In this document: piece by piece, positions 56,637 to 64,000 of the stretch
How positions within the stretch are numbered: the first letter of the stretch is position 1
Layout of the letters: every line of letters starts with the position of its first letter
DNA from: an uncultured Poribacteria bacterium
GTDB taxonomy: Bacteria; Poribacteria; WGA-4E; WGA-3G
Length of the DNA: 64,000 bases
Direction of reading: 5' to 3'
Assembly (NCBI GenBank): GCA_951828515.1
Contig: OX639992.1
Location: 5,744,217 to 5,808,216 of the forward strand
The notes under the pieces: model-generated
Seen by the model: only the letters and a program-made list of their open reading frames with translations
Databases searched by the model: none
Told to the model about the DNA's origin: nothing
Translations under genes and position numbers: made by a program

Positions 56637-57530
56637 ATGACAAGAGAAGAGATTATTGAGAAATTCCAGAATTTAAATGTATGGAAAAGAGGCGATCAAA
56701 GGGCAGCGCACAAGCCTTTACTGGTACTGTATACAATCGGAAAATTGCTGAGTGGTGAAGATAAACACATTTCATTTGAGGCTATAGAGGGCGATCTTCG
56801 CAATTTGCTAAGAGAATTTGGACCGTGGCGCAAAAGTTATCATCCTCAACACCCCTTTTGGCGGCTGCAAAACGATAAAATCTGGGAGATACGGAATGCC
56901 AACCGAATTCGGCAAACTTCCAGTGGAGATGCATACGTAACTGATCTGCGACATCATGGAGTCGGTGGTTTCCCAAAAGCAATTGCAACTCAACTTCAAA
57001 ACGATTCAAGACTCGCTTTTGAAATAATCTACGATTTGCTGGATGATCACTTCCCTCTCACACGCCACAGCGAAATTTTACAAGCTGTCAACATTCAACC
57101 GCCATTCCAAGTTTTTGAGACGAAAAGACGCTCTCTCAATTTCCGAGAAAACATCCTAAGAGCTTACGAGCGTAAATGTGCAGTATGCGGCTTCGATGTA
57201 AAATTAGGAAATACGCCTATCGCGTTAGAAGCCGCTCACATCAAATGGAAATCGCATGGCGGCCCTAGTGAAGCAGTAAACGGCCTGGCTTTATGTGTGT
57301 TACATCACGAATTATTTGATCGCGGAGCTTTTACGCTGTCCAAGCAACGACAAATCCTTATATCAGATGACGCACATGGAACAAAGGGTTTTAAGGAATG
57401 GTTGCAAAAGTATCACGGCAAAACGATTCTTCTCCCGCAAAGACAATCGTATTATCCAGAGACACAGTTCATCGGTTGGCATGTTAGAGAAGTGTTTCAA
57501 GGAAACTACCGAGAACTTTCAATTTACTAA
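56637..57530 (+). CDS. HNH restriction endonuclease with sulfur-binding-type N-terminal domain
   Basis: 297 aa. The N-terminal 150 residues (VWKRGDQRAAHKPLLVLYTI, then LLREFGPWRKSYHPQHPFWR and LQNDKIWEI) resemble the sulfur-binding domain of ScoMcrA-type enzymes, which bind phosphorothioate-modified DNA. The C-terminal HNH core is intact: C181-x2-C184 (CAVCG), His201 (AAHIKW), Asn215, and CVLHHELFDRG with Cys220 and His223/224. It should be a type IV-like nuclease that cuts modified DNA. Identification of the N-domain is from motif memory. It lies 529 bp before the DUF4007 operon on the same strand. Confidence 0.8.
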   Translation: MTREEIIEKFQNLNVWKRGDQRAAHKPLLVLYTIGKLLSGEDKHISFEAIEGDLRNLLREFGPWRKSYHPQHPFWRLQNDKIWEIRNANRIRQTSSGDAYVTDLRHHGVGGFPKAIATQLQNDSRLAFEIIYDLLDDHFPLTRHSEILQAVNIQPPFQVFETKRRSLNFRENILRAYERKCAVCGFDVKLGNTPIALEAAHIKWKSHGGPSEAVNGLALCVLHHELFDRGAFTLSKQRQILISDDAHGTKGFKEWLQKYHGKTILLPQRQSYYPETQFIGWHVREVFQGNYRELSIY

Positions 57531-57628
57531 ACCCTCCAATTTTTCCTGCGATATTCCTTAAACTTTTAGAATATCCGATCCATATAAAATTCTAAAAACT
57601 AATGATAGATGCAGTAAAGCAAAAAAAT

Positions 57629-57658
57629 TTGACATTTAATACGAATCCGTGCTAAAAT
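57629..57658 (+). promoter_or_regulatory. Probable promoter of the DUF4007 operon
   Basis: TTGACA (57629-57634), 18-bp spacer, TAAAAT (57653-57658). It leaves about 400 nt of leader before the TTG start at 58060. Confidence 0.5.
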
Positions 57659-57728
57659 TTTAGGTAAACTTGACATCAGCACAGAAATCTACATATTTCC
57701 GTCATTTTGTGTTTAATCAGTAAAGCGA

Positions 57729-57884
57729 ATGAAAAATCGAGATATGAACACTATAGTCAGAACAGCGCGTATGCTTGATAAGAATCCTTGCCTCAAGAGG
57801 TTATTCCTACCCCCGGAAGCCGTCTGGGCACCTGATTTAACAAGCCAATCTACCCCCCCCACTTTACAAACGATAAGTATTTAG
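57729..57884 (+). CDS. Possible 51-aa protein in the leader of the defence operon
   Basis: ATG 57729 to TAG 57884. Reads MKNRDMNTIVRTARMLDKNP then CLKRLFLPPEAVWAPDLTSQ. GTAAAGCGA is a poor ribosome binding site. No family recognised. It could be a small regulatory protein, or chance. The stretch 57890-58059 is open but not convincing as coding. Confidence 0.25.
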   Translation: MKNRDMNTIVRTARMLDKNPCLKRLFLPPEAVWAPDLTSQSTPPTLQTISI

Positions 57885-58059
57885 TCTCACAAAATATTCA
57901 CAGATTCTGCCAATATTCCGTTCCTGCGCCCGCGCGCCATTTCGTCCGATGGTATCCAACGCGGGTTGTTTTTGTTGTCTTACTTTCTGTTGTTCCTCTC
58001 ATTCTTTTACCCCTACTGTGGTTTGCACCACAGGTCTCTATATTTTGGGGAGAAGACAT

Positions 58060-59004
58060 TTGAGTAACGCTTCCAGAATCGCACCGCAGGCAATCAATCC
58101 ATCTTTTTCGGGACATCAGACATTTCCGTTTCGGTATACATGGCTGAAAAAAGGCATTGATGCCGTGATAGAAAACCCGACCATTTTTTCATCCGAGGAT
58201 GCTTCCGTTACTTTAGGAGTCGGAAAAAACATGGTGGACTCTATTCGGCATTGGTGTCGGACAACTCGATTGATTGAAGATGATGCCACCGCGCACCGAC
58301 GCAGGCAATTTGCCCCGACTGAACTCGGTGAAGCCATTTTTGCCGAAGAAGGATTTGATCCATACCTTGAAGATCCCGCGACGCTATGGCTAATTCATTA
58401 TCTTATCGCAACAAACACGAACCAAGCAACGGCATGGTATTGGGCATTCAATATTTTAAGGGGTAAACATTTCATGCCACACGTATTCACAAAAGAAGTA
58501 TACAAATGGGCACAGCAACAGAAACAGCCCCTGCGCCCCGTCTCTGACAATACACTCCGGCGAGATGTCAATTGTTTTATCCGAACTTACTGCCAATCGC
58601 GTGATAGCGAAGCCGTCCATGAGGAAACCTTTGATTGTCCACTTACTGAACTCAACTTAATTGCTGAATTACCAGAGAGTGAGGGATACGAATTTCAGCG
58701 TGGCGATAAAGAAACGCTCCCTAATGAAATTGTCACGTGGGCATTAGATACATTTTGGAAGGATCCGTTTAGGGAAAACCTCTTTTCTGGCAGAGAATCA
58801 CTCTCGTTCTCAGACTTGATGTATGCGCCATCAAGCCCCGGACGGGTATTCAGATTAGACGAAGACACAATGACGATATATCTTGAGAACCTGGTACACC
58901 TCACGGACGGTGCGTTCCAATATGATGAAACAGCAGGGTTAAAGCAGGTCTATCGGCATAGAGATTTAAACCAGATGGAACTTTTAAGGGAGTATTATGG
59001 GTAA
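58060..59004 (+). CDS. DUF4007 family protein
   Basis: 314 aa from TTG 58060, which has GGGGAGA six bases upstream; a frame open back to 57949 gives Cys-rich, implausible sequence. The DUF4007 signature is clear: FSGHQTFPFRYTWLKKGIDA, then VTLGVGKNMVDSIRHWCRTT with a winged-helix look, and QFAPTELGEAIFAEEGFDPY. The family travels with PAPS-reductase-like and ATPase genes in DNA-modification and defence loci; its own activity is not settled. It overlaps the next gene by 8 bp, so translation is probably coupled. Confidence 0.9.
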   Translation: MSNASRIAPQAINPSFSGHQTFPFRYTWLKKGIDAVIENPTIFSSEDASVTLGVGKNMVDSIRHWCRTTRLIEDDATAHRRRQFAPTELGEAIFAEEGFDPYLEDPATLWLIHYLIATNTNQATAWYWAFNILRGKHFMPHVFTKEVYKWAQQQKQPLRPVSDNTLRRDVNCFIRTYCQSRDSEAVHEETFDCPLTELNLIAELPESEGYEFQRGDKETLPNEIVTWALDTFWKDPFRENLFSGRESLSFSDLMYAPSSPGRVFRLDEDTMTIYLENLVHLTDGAFQYDETAGLKQVYRHRDLNQMELLREYYG

Positions 59005-62000
59005 CGTCCGCTTGTCAGATATTTTTCACATCACAGAACGTTTTCAGCGTTCTGTCCATCTGGAGCGTGATTTCTATACCGAAAACGCTTTAGATGGCTA
59101 CGTCGTGACTGTCAAAGCGCGTGAAACCCTAACTCGCCTCATCACAGCCCAAGAAAACGGTGCAACATCGAGAGCATGGTCTCTCACCGGTCCGTATGGT
59201 TCAGGGAAATCCGCGTTCGCGCTGTTCACTGCGAAGTTGCTTGGAAATCCTGAAGCACCGACAACCCAACAGGCTCTGAATTTGCTGAAACGTGGAGATA
59301 CCTCATTACACGAGCGATTTATGAGTATAAACGGTAACGGGAAAGGCATCTCATCAGGATTCTGCTCAGTGCTTATCTCCGGTGAACGCGCACCGATTAC
59401 GCTTGCGCTCCTACGCGGTTTAGAACACGGACTCAAGACTTTCGGGGTTTCACCCTCCAGTGCTCTTCAGCGGAAAATCAGAAATCTATTGAAAACTACC
59501 GCAAGCGGCACACCGCCACAGGCTTATGAAATTACTGCTCTTTTCGAGTCGGCGGCGCGATCTATTGAGAAAAATGGCGGCATCGGACTACTTTTAGTCA
59601 TTGATGAACTCGGAAAGTTCCTTGAATACGCCGCACAATCTCCAGCACACGGCGATGTGTTTGTCCTACAAACCCTTGCTGAACTCGCCGCACGCAGTGA
59701 ACAGACCCCACTATTTCTGCTCACTATTTTGCACCAAGCCTTTGAACAATACGCAAACAAGTTAGCGAAGTCACAACAGGAGGAATGGGGAAAAATACAA
59801 GGACGGTTTGAAGATATCGCCTTCGTGGAACCCACTGAACAGATACTTCGCTTGATCGCGTCTGCCATCCAAAGCAAACCAACAGATGAGAAAAAAAATC
59901 TATCTTTACTCATCGAATTTGAACTCAAACCGAACCAACTAACTGAGGATGAATTCAGCCAACTCCTGCGAAACTGTCTGCCGCTTCACCCGGCTGTAGC
60001 ACTTATTATCGGTCCGATCTTCAGACGATTTGCCCAGAATGAGCGCTCCCTTTTCGCTTTCCTCAACGCAAACGAACCTTATGGACTCCAAGACTTCCTT
60101 TCAAACCAGCACTACGATGGTAGCGTGCTACCGATGTTCTCAATCGCTGACCTCTATGATTATCTCAACACCGCCATAGGGAATAGATTAGCCGACTCAA
60201 GTGTCGGTAATAGGTGGGTGGAGATTGAGATGGCTATTAACGGAATCACAGACCCATCACCGACAACTGTTAAACTCATTAAGACGATAGGGCTACTCGG
60301 TATTATCGGAGAAGTAAGCACTAATCTGAAAGCCTCAAAGCACGTCCTCCATTATGCGTTAGATAACCACACTGAAGGATTCACAGAGAAATTTGAAACC
60401 GCACTGGAGACGCTAACAAGACGCAAGGTCGTTATCTATCACCCCCGCAACCACACCTATGCACTCTGGGAAGGCAGCAACATCGATATTGAGGCCAAAT
60501 ACCATGAGGCGGAACAACATCTTGATCCAAACGAAAGTCTCACGAACTACCTTTCAGCACTCGCGCCACCCCGGTCTCTCATCGCACGCCGACACCTGTT
60601 CGAGAAAGGCACACTCCGCTATTTCGACCTTCGTTACATCGATGCTGAAAACTTCGACGCGTCGCTTAGCGAATCACTCGGCGATGCAGACGGTCTCGTT
60701 CTCTATGCTCTCCCCGCAAACGAACAAGAACGAAAGCATCTTATTGAAAAAGCGAAGGAACAAGTCGTTATAGACCGTAAAGAGGTACTGATCGCAATCC
60801 CGACCACGACCCGTTTTCTGCGCGACGCTGTTACCGAACTCGCCTGTTTACAGTGGATTTCGGAAAATACACCAGAACTCGGAGGCGATGCAGTCGCAAG
60901 GCGGGTTCTTTCACGGCGACGGTTAGAGGCAGAACGAAATGTAGTCGAACAATTCGCAGCCATTTTCGGAGCGTCTATCGAAAACACTTGCAAATGGTTT
61001 CACACCGGACAACAGGTGAAAAACATCAACTCCCAACGTTCAAGGAACGAACATCTGTCAAAAATGTGTGATGCGGTCTATCAGAAAACCCCCATTATTC
61101 GGAATGAGCTCATCAACCGGCGGAAAATTTCTGGAACCGTAACAACCGCACGAAAAAAATTAATTCAAGCGATGCTTGAAAATGGAGATAAGAGAAATCT
61201 CGACATCACGGGTTACCCTCCTGAAATGAGTATCTATCGCTCGCTCCTATTGGAAACAGGCATACATCGCCAAGTCTCTGATGTTTGGGGATTCCATCCA
61301 CCGAAACTAAATGATGATATCAAAATAATAGACACATGGAATGCGATCGAGGCCTTTCTTGAAAGGTGTGAAGGGAAACGACAACCCGTTGTGAAACTCT
61401 ATGACCTCCTGATGGCATCCCCTTATGGGGTACGGAGCGGTCCCCTTCCCATCCTTTTATGTGCTGCGATGTTCCGCTATAAAACAGAAATTGCGCTCTA
61501 TCAAGAAGGATCCTTTATACCTAACTGGTCAATGCCGGTTTTTGAACGCTTCCTTAAAGTGCCAGAAAAATTCCAGATCAAACGTTTTCAGATAACAGAA
61601 GCGCGGTCAGACCTACTGCGCCAATATTCAAATGCCCTTAACCAACCAACAGAAACTGAACCCCTGAATCTATTGCCTCTCATCAAAATACTTGTGACCT
61701 TTATGGCCGGACTCCCGAAATACACCTTAAACACCGAAACCTTGAGTGGCACTGCGAAAAATCTTCGGACAGTCGTTCTGAGTGCCCGTGAACCTGACGA
61801 ACTCATCTTTAAGGAATTACCCGAAGCCCTCGGATTTTCCACCTTTGGTGTGGAAAGCACAGATTCAAACACATCCACAAAGTTTTCCAACACCTTACAG
61901 GATACGTTGTCCGAACTCGGGCGCACCTATGAAAATTTACTGAATTCCCTTGAAAAGCAGATCAAGGCTGCCTTTGTTTTAGCAGGCGATCGGAATAACT

Positions 62001-62479
62001 TCCGAAATGCGTTGGTTCACAGAGCAGCCCCGCTACATAAACTCACAAGTGAACCGCAACTTAACCAATTTCTGATTCGGATATGTGACGAACAACTCGA
62101 CTTCCCCAGTTGGCTTGAAGCCATTGGTGCTACACTTGCGGGTAAGCCGCCAAAATCTTGGTTCGACAGAGATACAGATACCTTCATGTCAAATTTTTCC
62201 GAAGTCGTTCGGAAATTCCGGCACATTGAGGCACTATCTTACGAAAAGCGGGAACACACAGGATCAGGTGAACCTATTCGAATCGGTATCACCCGACCAA
62301 ACCAAGATGAACAGGAACGCGTCGTTACTTTGACCGCAATCGCCGACGAGCAAACTTCCGAAATAGAATATGAAATCCAGCAAGTTTTTAAAAAATTCGA
62401 CGTAAATGACAATCCTGAACTTCGTATCGCAATTTTGGCGCGCATTTCACAAAAATGGATACAACAACTCGATGAATAG
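58997..62479 (+). CDS. Large P-loop ATPase, BrxC/PglY-like in size and context
   Basis: 1160 aa. Walker A GPYGSGKS (65-72), Walker B LLLVIDELGKFLE (198-210, Asp203-Glu204). A sensor-like stretch is at FLLTILHQAFEQYA. The rest is mostly helical and not recognised. Size, Walker motifs and neighbours (DUF4007 before, PAPS reductase after) resemble the ATPase of BREX/Pgl and DNA-sulfur loci. I cannot prove it is BrxC. It starts inside the end of the DUF4007 gene, with AAGGGAG upstream, and is followed after 11 bp by the PAPS-reductase gene. Confidence 0.85.
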   Translation: MGNVRLSDIFHITERFQRSVHLERDFYTENALDGYVVTVKARETLTRLITAQENGATSRAWSLTGPYGSGKSAFALFTAKLLGNPEAPTTQQALNLLKRGDTSLHERFMSINGNGKGISSGFCSVLISGERAPITLALLRGLEHGLKTFGVSPSSALQRKIRNLLKTTASGTPPQAYEITALFESAARSIEKNGGIGLLLVIDELGKFLEYAAQSPAHGDVFVLQTLAELAARSEQTPLFLLTILHQAFEQYANKLAKSQQEEWGKIQGRFEDIAFVEPTEQILRLIASAIQSKPTDEKKNLSLLIEFELKPNQLTEDEFSQLLRNCLPLHPAVALIIGPIFRRFAQNERSLFAFLNANEPYGLQDFLSNQHYDGSVLPMFSIADLYDYLNTAIGNRLADSSVGNRWVEIEMAINGITDPSPTTVKLIKTIGLLGIIGEVSTNLKASKHVLHYALDNHTEGFTEKFETALETLTRRKVVIYHPRNHTYALWEGSNIDIEAKYHEAEQHLDPNESLTNYLSALAPPRSLIARRHLFEKGTLRYFDLRYIDAENFDASLSESLGDADGLVLYALPANEQERKHLIEKAKEQVVIDRKEVLIAIPTTTRFLRDAVTELACLQWISENTPELGGDAVARRVLSRRRLEAERNVVEQFAAIFGASIENTCKWFHTGQQVKNINSQRSRNEHLSKMCDAVYQKTPIIRNELINRRKISGTVTTARKKLIQAMLENGDKRNLDITGYPPEMSIYRSLLLETGIHRQVSDVWGFHPPKLNDDIKIIDTWNAIEAFLERCEGKRQPVVKLYDLLMASPYGVRSGPLPILLCAAMFRYKTEIALYQEGSFIPNWSMPVFERFLKVPEKFQIKRFQITEARSDLLRQYSNALNQPTETEPLNLLPLIKILVTFMAGLPKYTLNTETLSGTAKNLRTVVLSAREPDELIFKELPEALGFSTFGVESTDSNTSTKFSNTLQDTLSELGRTYENLLNSLEKQIKAAFVLAGDRNNFRNALVHRAAPLHKLTSEPQLNQFLIRICDEQLDFPSWLEAIGATLAGKPPKSWFDRDTDTFMSNFSEVVRKFRHIEALSYEKREHTGSGEPIRIGITRPNQDEQERVVTLTAIADEQTSEIEYEIQQVFKKFDVNDNPELRIAILARISQKWIQQLDE

Positions 62480-62490
62480 AGGGAGGAAAA

Positions 62491-63336
62491 ATGGAACAAA
62501 AAATCCGCCATTTGCTCGGTCTTTCGGGTGGTAAAGACAGTTCTGCACTTGCAGTCTATATGCGAGACAGAGTGCCAGAGATGGAATACTTCTTCTCTGA
62601 TACCGGCAAAGAATTACCCGAAACCTACGAATATCTGGATAAATTAGAAGCGTTCCTTGGCAAACCGATAGTTCGTCTGAATATGGACTCCGATCACCAT
62701 AAGAATCGGGATTTTGATCACTGGTTGGACGTTTATAAAGGCTTACTGCCGTCCTCACAGGTCAGGTGGTGCACGGTTAACCTCAAAATTAGGCCCTTTG
62801 AGGAGTACGTAGGCGAAGACAGAGCGTATCACTACATCGCTATCCGGGCAGACGAAGCCCGCGTCGGTTACAAGTCCCCGAAAATCTCCTCCCTTTCAAA
62901 CATTGAACCGAAATATCCATTTAAGGAGGACGGCATTACGAAAGCGGATGTCTACCGAATTCTCGAGGAGAACGGGATAGGTCTCCCAGAGTACTACGAA
63001 TGGCGAACGCGTTCCGGGTGCTACTTCTGTTTTTTCCAACGCAAATCCGAGTGGGTCGGACTGTTAGAGAAACACCCAGACCTCTTTGAACTCGCCAAAG
63101 CGTATGAAGAGACTCCGAACAAAGAAGCAAAGACAGGTGAACAGTTCACATGGTGTCAAGGCGAAAGTTTAGCGGAGTTGTCAGACCCCGAACGGGTAGC
63201 GGAGATTAAGGCAAACACGGAAAAGGCACTCACAACGAAAAAGGAAGATAAACCGAATCTCCGTCTGGTAGAAATCTTCACAGATGTCCTTGACGATGAA
63301 GACGACGAGGAACCGTGTCTGATTTGTCATAAATAG
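62491..63336 (+). CDS. PAPS-reductase-like (DndC/BrxP-like) ATP-pyrophosphatase
   Basis: 281 aa. PP-loop SGGKDSS (12-18). Cys94 (RWCTVNLK), Cys177 and Cys180 (GCYFCFF), and a C-terminal Cys276/Cys279 (CLICHK). The WCT, GCYFC and Lys positions are typical of DndC-like sulfur-transfer enzymes and of the family members in BREX type 4. It probably activates a substrate as an adenylate for DNA sulfuration, or has a regulatory role. AGGGAGG precedes the ATG. The gene is third in the operon. Confidence 0.88.
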   Translation: MEQKIRHLLGLSGGKDSSALAVYMRDRVPEMEYFFSDTGKELPETYEYLDKLEAFLGKPIVRLNMDSDHHKNRDFDHWLDVYKGLLPSSQVRWCTVNLKIRPFEEYVGEDRAYHYIAIRADEARVGYKSPKISSLSNIEPKYPFKEDGITKADVYRILEENGIGLPEYYEWRTRSGCYFCFFQRKSEWVGLLEKHPDLFELAKAYEETPNKEAKTGEQFTWCQGESLAELSDPERVAEIKANTEKALTTKKEDKPNLRLVEIFTDVLDDEDDEEPCLICHK

Positions 63337-63380
63337 TATGGACCAAATTCTATTGTATCCAAGAGGAAACAGATAATGGG

Positions 63381-64000
63381 ATGACCCTTCGGGCACTCCC
63401 CGATATCCGACCACTTTACATATTGCCAAAGGACCCCGCGACAGAAGATGTCCTAATTCCGTGCTTTCAGTCTGCTACGCATGTTGATTGCATGATGGGT
63501 TTCTTTTCGAGTGAAATTCTGGTGTCACTTGCACCAGGGTTAGCAACGTTCATAAACTGCGCAGACGAAAGTTTGCGTCTGATTATCAGTCCGCTGCTCC
63601 GCCCTGAAGACAAAGCGGCAATAGCAGAAGGCGTAGCCTCCGTAGAGGACATCGTCAACGCAGCTTTAGAAGATTTTGTTGTTACCGAAAACGCTATTGC
63701 GCAGCATACGCTGAAATGCCTTTCGTGGATGCTGCGTCACAGACGCGTGGAAATCAAGGTTGCCTTGATGAAAGATGCGCTTTTCCACCCCAAGGTCTGG
63801 CTCTTTCATGAGGGTGACGATGTCATCGCAGCACACGGCTCCAGCAATATGACGTATGCCGGTATTCAGAGAAATATTGAGCAAATGTCTATTTCTAAAT
63901 CGTGGGAAGATGGTAACCAATACTATATTACAGAAAAATTGTGCGACCAGTTCAAGCAATTTTGGACAAATTACGATGAGACGTGCACTGTCATTCCGAT
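63381..64000 (+). CDS. PLD-like domain protein, N-terminal part (probably a helicase-nuclease; runs off window)
   Basis: At least 206 aa from ATG 63381 to the window end. It reads MTLRALPDIRPLYILPKDPA, then a phospholipase-D-like domain with HVDCMMGFFSSEIL and the core FHPKVWLFHEGDD followed by AAHGSSNMTYAGIQRNIEQM. The HxK...GSSN pattern is that of the PLD domains that precede DEAD/DEAH or SNF2 helicase domains in defence systems. The helicase part is not visible and is inferred. AGAGGAAAC is upstream. Confidence 0.75.
   Translation, partial: MTLRALPDIRPLYILPKDPATEDVLIPCFQSATHVDCMMGFFSSEILVSLAPGLATFINCADESLRLIISPLLRPEDKAAIAEGVASVEDIVNAALEDFVVTENAIAQHTLKCLSWMLRHRRVEIKVALMKDALFHPKVWLFHEGDDVIAAHGSSNMTYAGIQRNIEQMSISKSWEDGNQYYITEKLCDQFKQFWTNYDETCTVIP

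Follow-up and report, generated by a model that had tools for sequence, protein, structure and literature searches.

An SspBCD-PbeABCD operon in a sponge-associated Poribacteria genome, a probable phosphorothioate-based restriction-modification system

Results

An operon in the genome of a sponge-associated member of the Poribacteria encodes, with a probability that we put at about 0.75, a phosphorothioate (PT)-based restriction-modification system, in which the modification module SspBCD is joined to a PbeABCD subtype dedicated to Ssp and the nuclease SBD-HNH is an optional neighbour. The operon begins in a 64,000-nucleotide stretch of DNA, here called the window (G000:C1:5744217-5808216), of a genome consisting of one contig of 5.85 Mb. 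The five ORFs of the initial annotation are all present on the + strand. Its DUF4007, ATPase, PAPS-reductase-like and PLD genes do form the closely packed one-strand operon that it described, with an 8-bp overlap followed by gaps of 11 bp and 44 bp, and gaps within the operon are 0-45 bp as far as PbeD. The PLD ORF is indeed open at position 64000, but the contig goes on past the window, so the operon is uncut in the genome itself. The genes beyond 64000 are defence genes with no housekeeping genes among them, in keeping with the defence island first proposed. The predicted features are listed below in window numbering, which is continued past 64000.

56637-57530, + strand: SBD-HNH, PT-DNA-dependent HNH restriction endonuclease (NF045808), accessory gene 5' of the operon
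57629-57658, + strand: promoter-like TTGACA-18-TAAAAT (11/12 consensus matches)
58060-59004, + strand: sspB (DUF4007), TTG start, 314 aa (PADLOC, PF13182, solved SspB, alignment and Shine-Dalgarno site)
58997-62479, + strand: sspC, large P-loop ATPase, 1160 aa (PADLOC, Walker A/B)
62491-63336, + strand: sspD, ATP pyrophosphatase/PAPS-reductase-like sulfurtransferase, 281 aa (PADLOC, PF01507, SGGKDS)
63381-65507, + strand, running past 64000: pbeA, N-terminal HKD (PLD) nuclease and SF2 helicase, 708 aa (PADLOC PbeA)
65519-65767, past the window end: pbeB, 82 aa (position and conservation in relatives)
65764-67878, past the window end: pbeC, CxC ABC-ATPase, 704 aa (PADLOC PbeC)
67882-68409, past the window end: pbeD, 175 aa (profile-profile match to other PbeD)
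68419-68781, past the window end: P120, 120 aa, last operon gene (no match)
69126-70118 (L003:15343-16335): broken type ISP enzyme, 3' of the operon

The segment from pbeA through P120 corresponds to L003:9598-14998. A common promoter had been suggested at 57629; the site upstream of sspB is present, and is plausible rather than proven because matches of at least 9/12 turn up at chance frequency in the region. Searching the 20-kb region against Rfam gave no match.

By profile matches and motifs, the DUF4007, large-ATPase and PAPS-reductase-like genes are identified as sspB, sspC and sspD, which together in one operon constitute the SspBCD module of a PT defence operon and no BREX variant. SspB was recognised by PADLOC (E 1.3e-98) and PF13182 (5.5e-90), and a sequence search of structures matched it to the solved SspB 6juf/6lb9 at E 1.3e-34. 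SspC (PADLOC SspC, E 0, 1083 bits) carries a Walker A motif, GPYGSGKS, at residue 65 and a Walker B motif, LLVIDE, at 199. SspD was matched over its full length (PADLOC, E 1.3e-114) and by PF01507, with an SGGKDS motif at residue 12; a PDB sequence search found no relative of it at E 0.01. The ORF 57949-59004 exists as initially annotated, but sspB most likely starts at TTG 58060 rather than at ATG 57949, where the reading frame opens, because ten homologues align from there and a ribosome site, GGGGAGAAG, precedes it. No cysteine desulfurase gene (sspA) lies within the operon. Two IscS/NifS-type enzymes are encoded elsewhere in the genome, and either is a candidate sulfur donor; the IscS-SspBCD system of Vibrio anguillarum, with its cysteine desulfurase in trans, is comparable.

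The PLD domain of the next protein had been noticed correctly, but the portion in the window is the N-terminal 206 of the 708 residues of PbeA, an identity that had been missed, and the remainder is an SF2 helicase. PbeA (PADLOC, 2.3e-197) retains an intact HKD motif, HPKVWLF..GSSN, with H136 and K138 as the HKD residues, scores 381 bits against TIGR04095, below the cut-off of 600, and has its closest named relatives in Candidatus Poribacteria MAGs. The ORF of 82 aa starting 11 bp after pbeA matches no model of the profile libraries; we assign it to PbeB because it is conserved at the same place in Ssp-linked loci. PbeC (PADLOC, 7.5e-59) bears the CxC hook CICGE at residue 344, which is missing from the two DndD proteins compared. 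PbeD had no match in the profile libraries and only antibody noise in a PDB sequence search, but hhalign matched its alignment (91.7% probability, E 7.9e-7) to that of Dnd-linked, methylase-linked and unlinked PbeD; direct comparison with DndE proper, for which only two sequences were used, detected no similarity. P120 matches no family. AlphaFold models of P120 and PbeD (mean pLDDT 50 and 44) were too poor for use.

A search of the whole genome found no DndC, and a Dnd reading of the operon was rejected on that ground. The sole near-full-length DndD-like protein of the genome is the PbeC of this operon, and a search for SspE returned no full-length copy, only two partial matches of ~90-100 residues elsewhere. 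SspBCD is thus the only PT partner found for Pbe, and judging by gene content, any PT dependence of Pbe in this genome can only be on SspBCD.

By analogy with characterised systems, self DNA is most likely tagged by SspBCD and untagged DNA blocked by PbeABCD. Sulfur would be delivered to SspD by a chromosomal cysteine desulfurase; SspB would recognise and nick DNA and SspC would drive the process as a ring ATPase, as their characterised relatives suggest; and SspD would add PT to a single strand of self DNA, which in the known module happens at CpsCA. PbeC-PbeD, the CxC-hook ABC ATPase and its small partner, may scan DNA for missing PT and, where PT is missing, recruit or license PbeA, whose helicase and HKD nuclease would translocate along invading DNA and nick or cleave it, and so stop its replication. 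PbeB could be a small regulator, and SBD-HNH would attack DNA bearing PT in other sequence contexts. Cleavage is the weakest of these steps, because in Xiong 2019 (PMC6459918) PbeABCD blocked virus replication in a PT-dependent way with no visible cleavage of viral DNA. In PMC10853773 the HKD domain is argued to imply cutting; with the motif intact in this PbeA, a replication block and cutting would both fit.

PMC10853773 also proposes a suicide model for CxC systems, by which infection would disturb PbeB or PT and PbeA would then cut host DNA. Such abortive infection would suit a PbeB that is small and conserved in Ssp-linked loci and a PbeA with an intact HKD motif, but we consider it unlikely: PbeB is well conserved here, with no rapid evolution, and in Xiong 2019 (PMC6459918) virus DNA stayed intact at a low level and protection was PT-dependent.

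To return to PbeABCD as an effector that would read PT, the Ssp-linked proteins stand apart from other Pbe proteins. Identity to the window PbeA is 48-84% among Ssp-linked PbeA and ~24-36% among Dnd-linked, methylase-linked or unlinked ones. In a maximum-likelihood tree, 12 PbeA of the Ssp kind (11 beside Ssp genes, one at a contig edge) form one clade on a long branch with 100/100 support. In all 11 PbeC compared, LNGASRRAL (FGASKRAL in one) replaces the ordinary ABC signature of other PbeC, and the C-terminus is a CxC-x6-CxxC tail that is absent from four PbeC outside the clade. Distances of SspB/C/D and of PbeA/C are correlated in Mantel tests (n=8, r 0.59-0.92; SspD vs PbeA r 0.92), a result from few loci that partly reflects phylum structure, most loci being from one phylum. 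The Ssp-linked PbeABCD is apparently a dedicated and undescribed subtype.

The SspBCD-PbeABCD pairing recurs in Poribacteria, where four further loci have it (L083, L087, L093 and L052), and in Acidimicrobiia, Nitrospinota and Alphaproteobacteria. A cysteine-desulfurase gene stands in front of the paired modules in an acidimicrobiial locus (L108, read from sequence) and, as an annotated gene, on a Sphingomonadaceae plasmid (CP099618). Oleispirillum (L109) has both modules in reversed order. In Nitrospinota (L111), SspE lies between the Ssp and Pbe modules; SspC and SspD are seen there, and the stretch ends before SspB. On a Rhizobium plasmid, SspABCD stands convergent to Pbe genes of a different lineage, whose PbeA falls outside the clade, so Ssp-Pbe pairing probably arose at least twice. 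Counting against a joined system, two loci (L056 and L059) have PbeABCD on one contig with SspD but neither SspB nor SspC beside it.

In the genus of the window, the island occupies a defence hotspot, with MutY-SUMF genes on one side and successive PhyH dioxygenase genes on the other. Of the 85 genomes of the phylum surveyed, 53 have SspD and 48 SspC. The SspBCD core of Poribacteria is frequently located in this hotspot, and in the 55 loci examined interchangeable modules follow it: PbeABCD, true SspE (in other Poribacteria, in the place of PbeABCD after SspD), DndB-family proteins, GHKL ATPase, GmrSD-HNH, type ISP and SBD-HNH. The broken type ISP gene 3' of the operon is a relic of another effector: over 287 N-terminal residues, its product shows 84-90% identity to full-length copies, which lie directly 3' of SspD in two sister genomes (L078:6410-9502, - strand; L097:10558-13647, + strand).

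Given that the site receives many modules, SspBCD and PbeABCD might be independent cassettes which share an operon and a hotspot by chance and do not cooperate. The GHKL ATPase gene between SspD and PbeA in L059 and the truncated type ISP relic would both accord with this, but it seems improbable: order and strand are kept, with genes overlapping or nearly touching, in several phyla and on chromosomes as well as a plasmid, and among the loci examined the Pbe clade occurs only beside Ssp genes.

Several other arrangements were observed. Two kinds of protein recur in the effector slot of SspBCD just after SspD (L061, L069, L081, L086, L094, L096 and others), GHKL (HATPase_c) proteins (565-837 aa) and DndB-family proteins (420-780 aa), often with a small partner (c16, c17), and several have no PADLOC match. 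On a Mesorhizobium plasmid (L122:7816-12163), PLD, ATP-binding and DEAD-helicase functions are encoded by separate genes convergent with SspABCD; these three genes resemble a split PbeA module. On a Chlorohelix plasmid (L123), an SspC-like gene, one for a sensor histidine kinase and a hypothetical one precede SspD in that order, and an FtsK-type gene comes after it; in this Ssp locus a GHKL gene is enclosed by the modification operon. On a Thermomicrobium plasmid (L126:2684-14777), SspBCD is followed by a further DUF4007 gene, which is short, and by a gene of the PglZ family, a blend of Ssp and BREX-like parts.

The HNH enzyme seen next to the operon at 56637-57530 in the initial annotation, where its PT dependence went unnamed, is identified by sequence as a PT-dependent SBD-HNH restriction enzyme with a sulfur-binding domain (SBD) and an HNH domain. 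It scores 322 bits (cut-off 180) against NF045808, 'phosphorothioated DNA-binding restriction endonuclease'; its N-terminus matches the SBD structures 5zmm/5zmo (ScoMcrA) and, weakly, 7cc9/7ccj; and at least 95% of 23 homologues share H25-K26-P27, P73-F74-W75 and the HNH residues H201, N215 and H224. The two domains, the HKP and PFW residues and the NF045808 match are shared with EcoWI and SprMcrA (PMC7461809). Enzymes of that kind are usually unlinked to PT modification genes (<3.6% near dnd), whereas 23 of 30 full-length homologues in this phylum adjoin SspD. Of the other seven, six come from genomes in which SspD has no full match, and one of these six (L128) is beside a 48-aa SspD remnant.

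With so many copies adjoining SspD, and many directly 3' of it in the effector slot, SBD-HNH could be the true restriction partner and PbeABCD secondary. There is little to recommend this reading, however: characterised SBD-HNH enzymes cut PT-bearing DNA (PMC7461809) and could attack the tagged host, SBD-HNH is absent from Ssp-Pbe loci beyond the window's genus, and it persists in the hotspot of genomes that lack an intact SspD (L127, L128). Its retention there suggests that part of its linkage to SspBCD may be positional, through a shared hotspot. In seven loci (L050, L054, L057, L058, L065, L072 and L074), SBD-HNH comes directly after SspD while SspB and SspC are both absent from the vicinity, and two single-contig genomes with such a pair (G047, G084) have no SspC match anywhere. 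Such pairs may be what is left of decayed systems, or else SspD may serve with a PT-reading nuclease in a way not recognised so far.

For the system with PbeABCD as its effector, a wider and still tentative proposal is that the Ssp-type PbeABCD stops PT-lacking DNA while SBD-HNH destroys DNA whose PT lies in a wrong context of sequence or strand, giving a two-sided check of self and non-self, and that SspBCD in Poribacteria is a common tag for interchangeable effectors in one chromosomal slot.

The similarity of SspC to BrxC and of SspD to BrxP in PADLOC might point to a BREX type 4-like variant, but this is highly improbable and was rejected on profile scores and missing genes: the SspB, SspC and SspD models of PADLOC fit far better, the NCBIfam BrxC/PglY models give SspC scores well short of their cut-offs, and PglZ and BrxL are missing from the operon. 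The BREX-type ATPase and the kinship with BREX or Dnd proposed initially are therefore not upheld, the operon being SspB-SspC-SspD itself and not BREX or Dnd with replaced parts. Other expectations of that annotation held good. It described a less-studied variant, which is here SspBCD joined to PbeABCD, and the operon has neither PglZ nor a methylase. Of the genes to be sought past 64000, a helicase was found, within PbeA, and the suggested PADLOC run named SspB, SspC, SspD, PbeA and PbeC.

Discussion

Published pairings are PbeABCD with DndCDEA, and SspBCD with SspE or SspFGH. The present operon shares full-length SspB, SspC and SspD with SspABCD-SspE and SspABCD-SspFGH (PMC8092258, PMC9646914). 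It differs from the former in having PbeABCD as the effector, in a genome with no full-length SspE, and from the latter in having PbeABCD downstream and no FtsK-like (SspH) gene in the operon. With DndCDEA-PbeABCD (Xiong 2019, PMC6459918) it shares the gene order PbeA-PbeB-PbeC-PbeD, the CxC hook and an HKD-SF2 PbeA, but the modification module is SspBCD and not DndCDEA, the PbeA is only ~30% identical to Dnd-linked PbeA, and PbeC differs by a signature of its own and a zinc-finger-like tail. Because PbeABCD without Dnd is already known (320 of 553 PbeAC in PMC6459918), we limit the assignment to the PbeABCD module and do not extend it to the DndCDEA-PbeABCD system.

PbeABCD corresponds to the CxC ABC-ATPase-DndE systems of PMC10853773. 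The part of that paper considered here describes mix-and-match with PT modules for Dnd, sets Ssp apart as a system of its own and mentions no joining of it to CxC systems. In PMC7464106, pbeA-D is counted among dnd- or ssp-bearing strains, which may include strains of the present kind, and an SspBCD-PbeABCD pairing is not named. The open full texts searched yielded no published description of SspBCD with PbeABCD.

Wang et al. 2021 (PMC8092258) found 2,211 of 2,678 sspBCD loci to be without SspE or SspFGH and asked about further restriction counterparts. SspBCD-PbeABCD, present also in three other phyla, would supply one missing partner of such effector-less systems, and the pairing may explain part of both gaps, SspBCD without an effector and PbeAC without Dnd. 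It would also give Pbe a single-strand PT partner, and the PbeC signature and tail provide sequence marks for recognising Ssp-type systems. In the Poribacteria hotspot, at least six kinds of module share the slot beside a single tagging core, and DndB-like proteins, GHKL ATPases and type ISP enzymes among them are candidates for further Ssp effectors.
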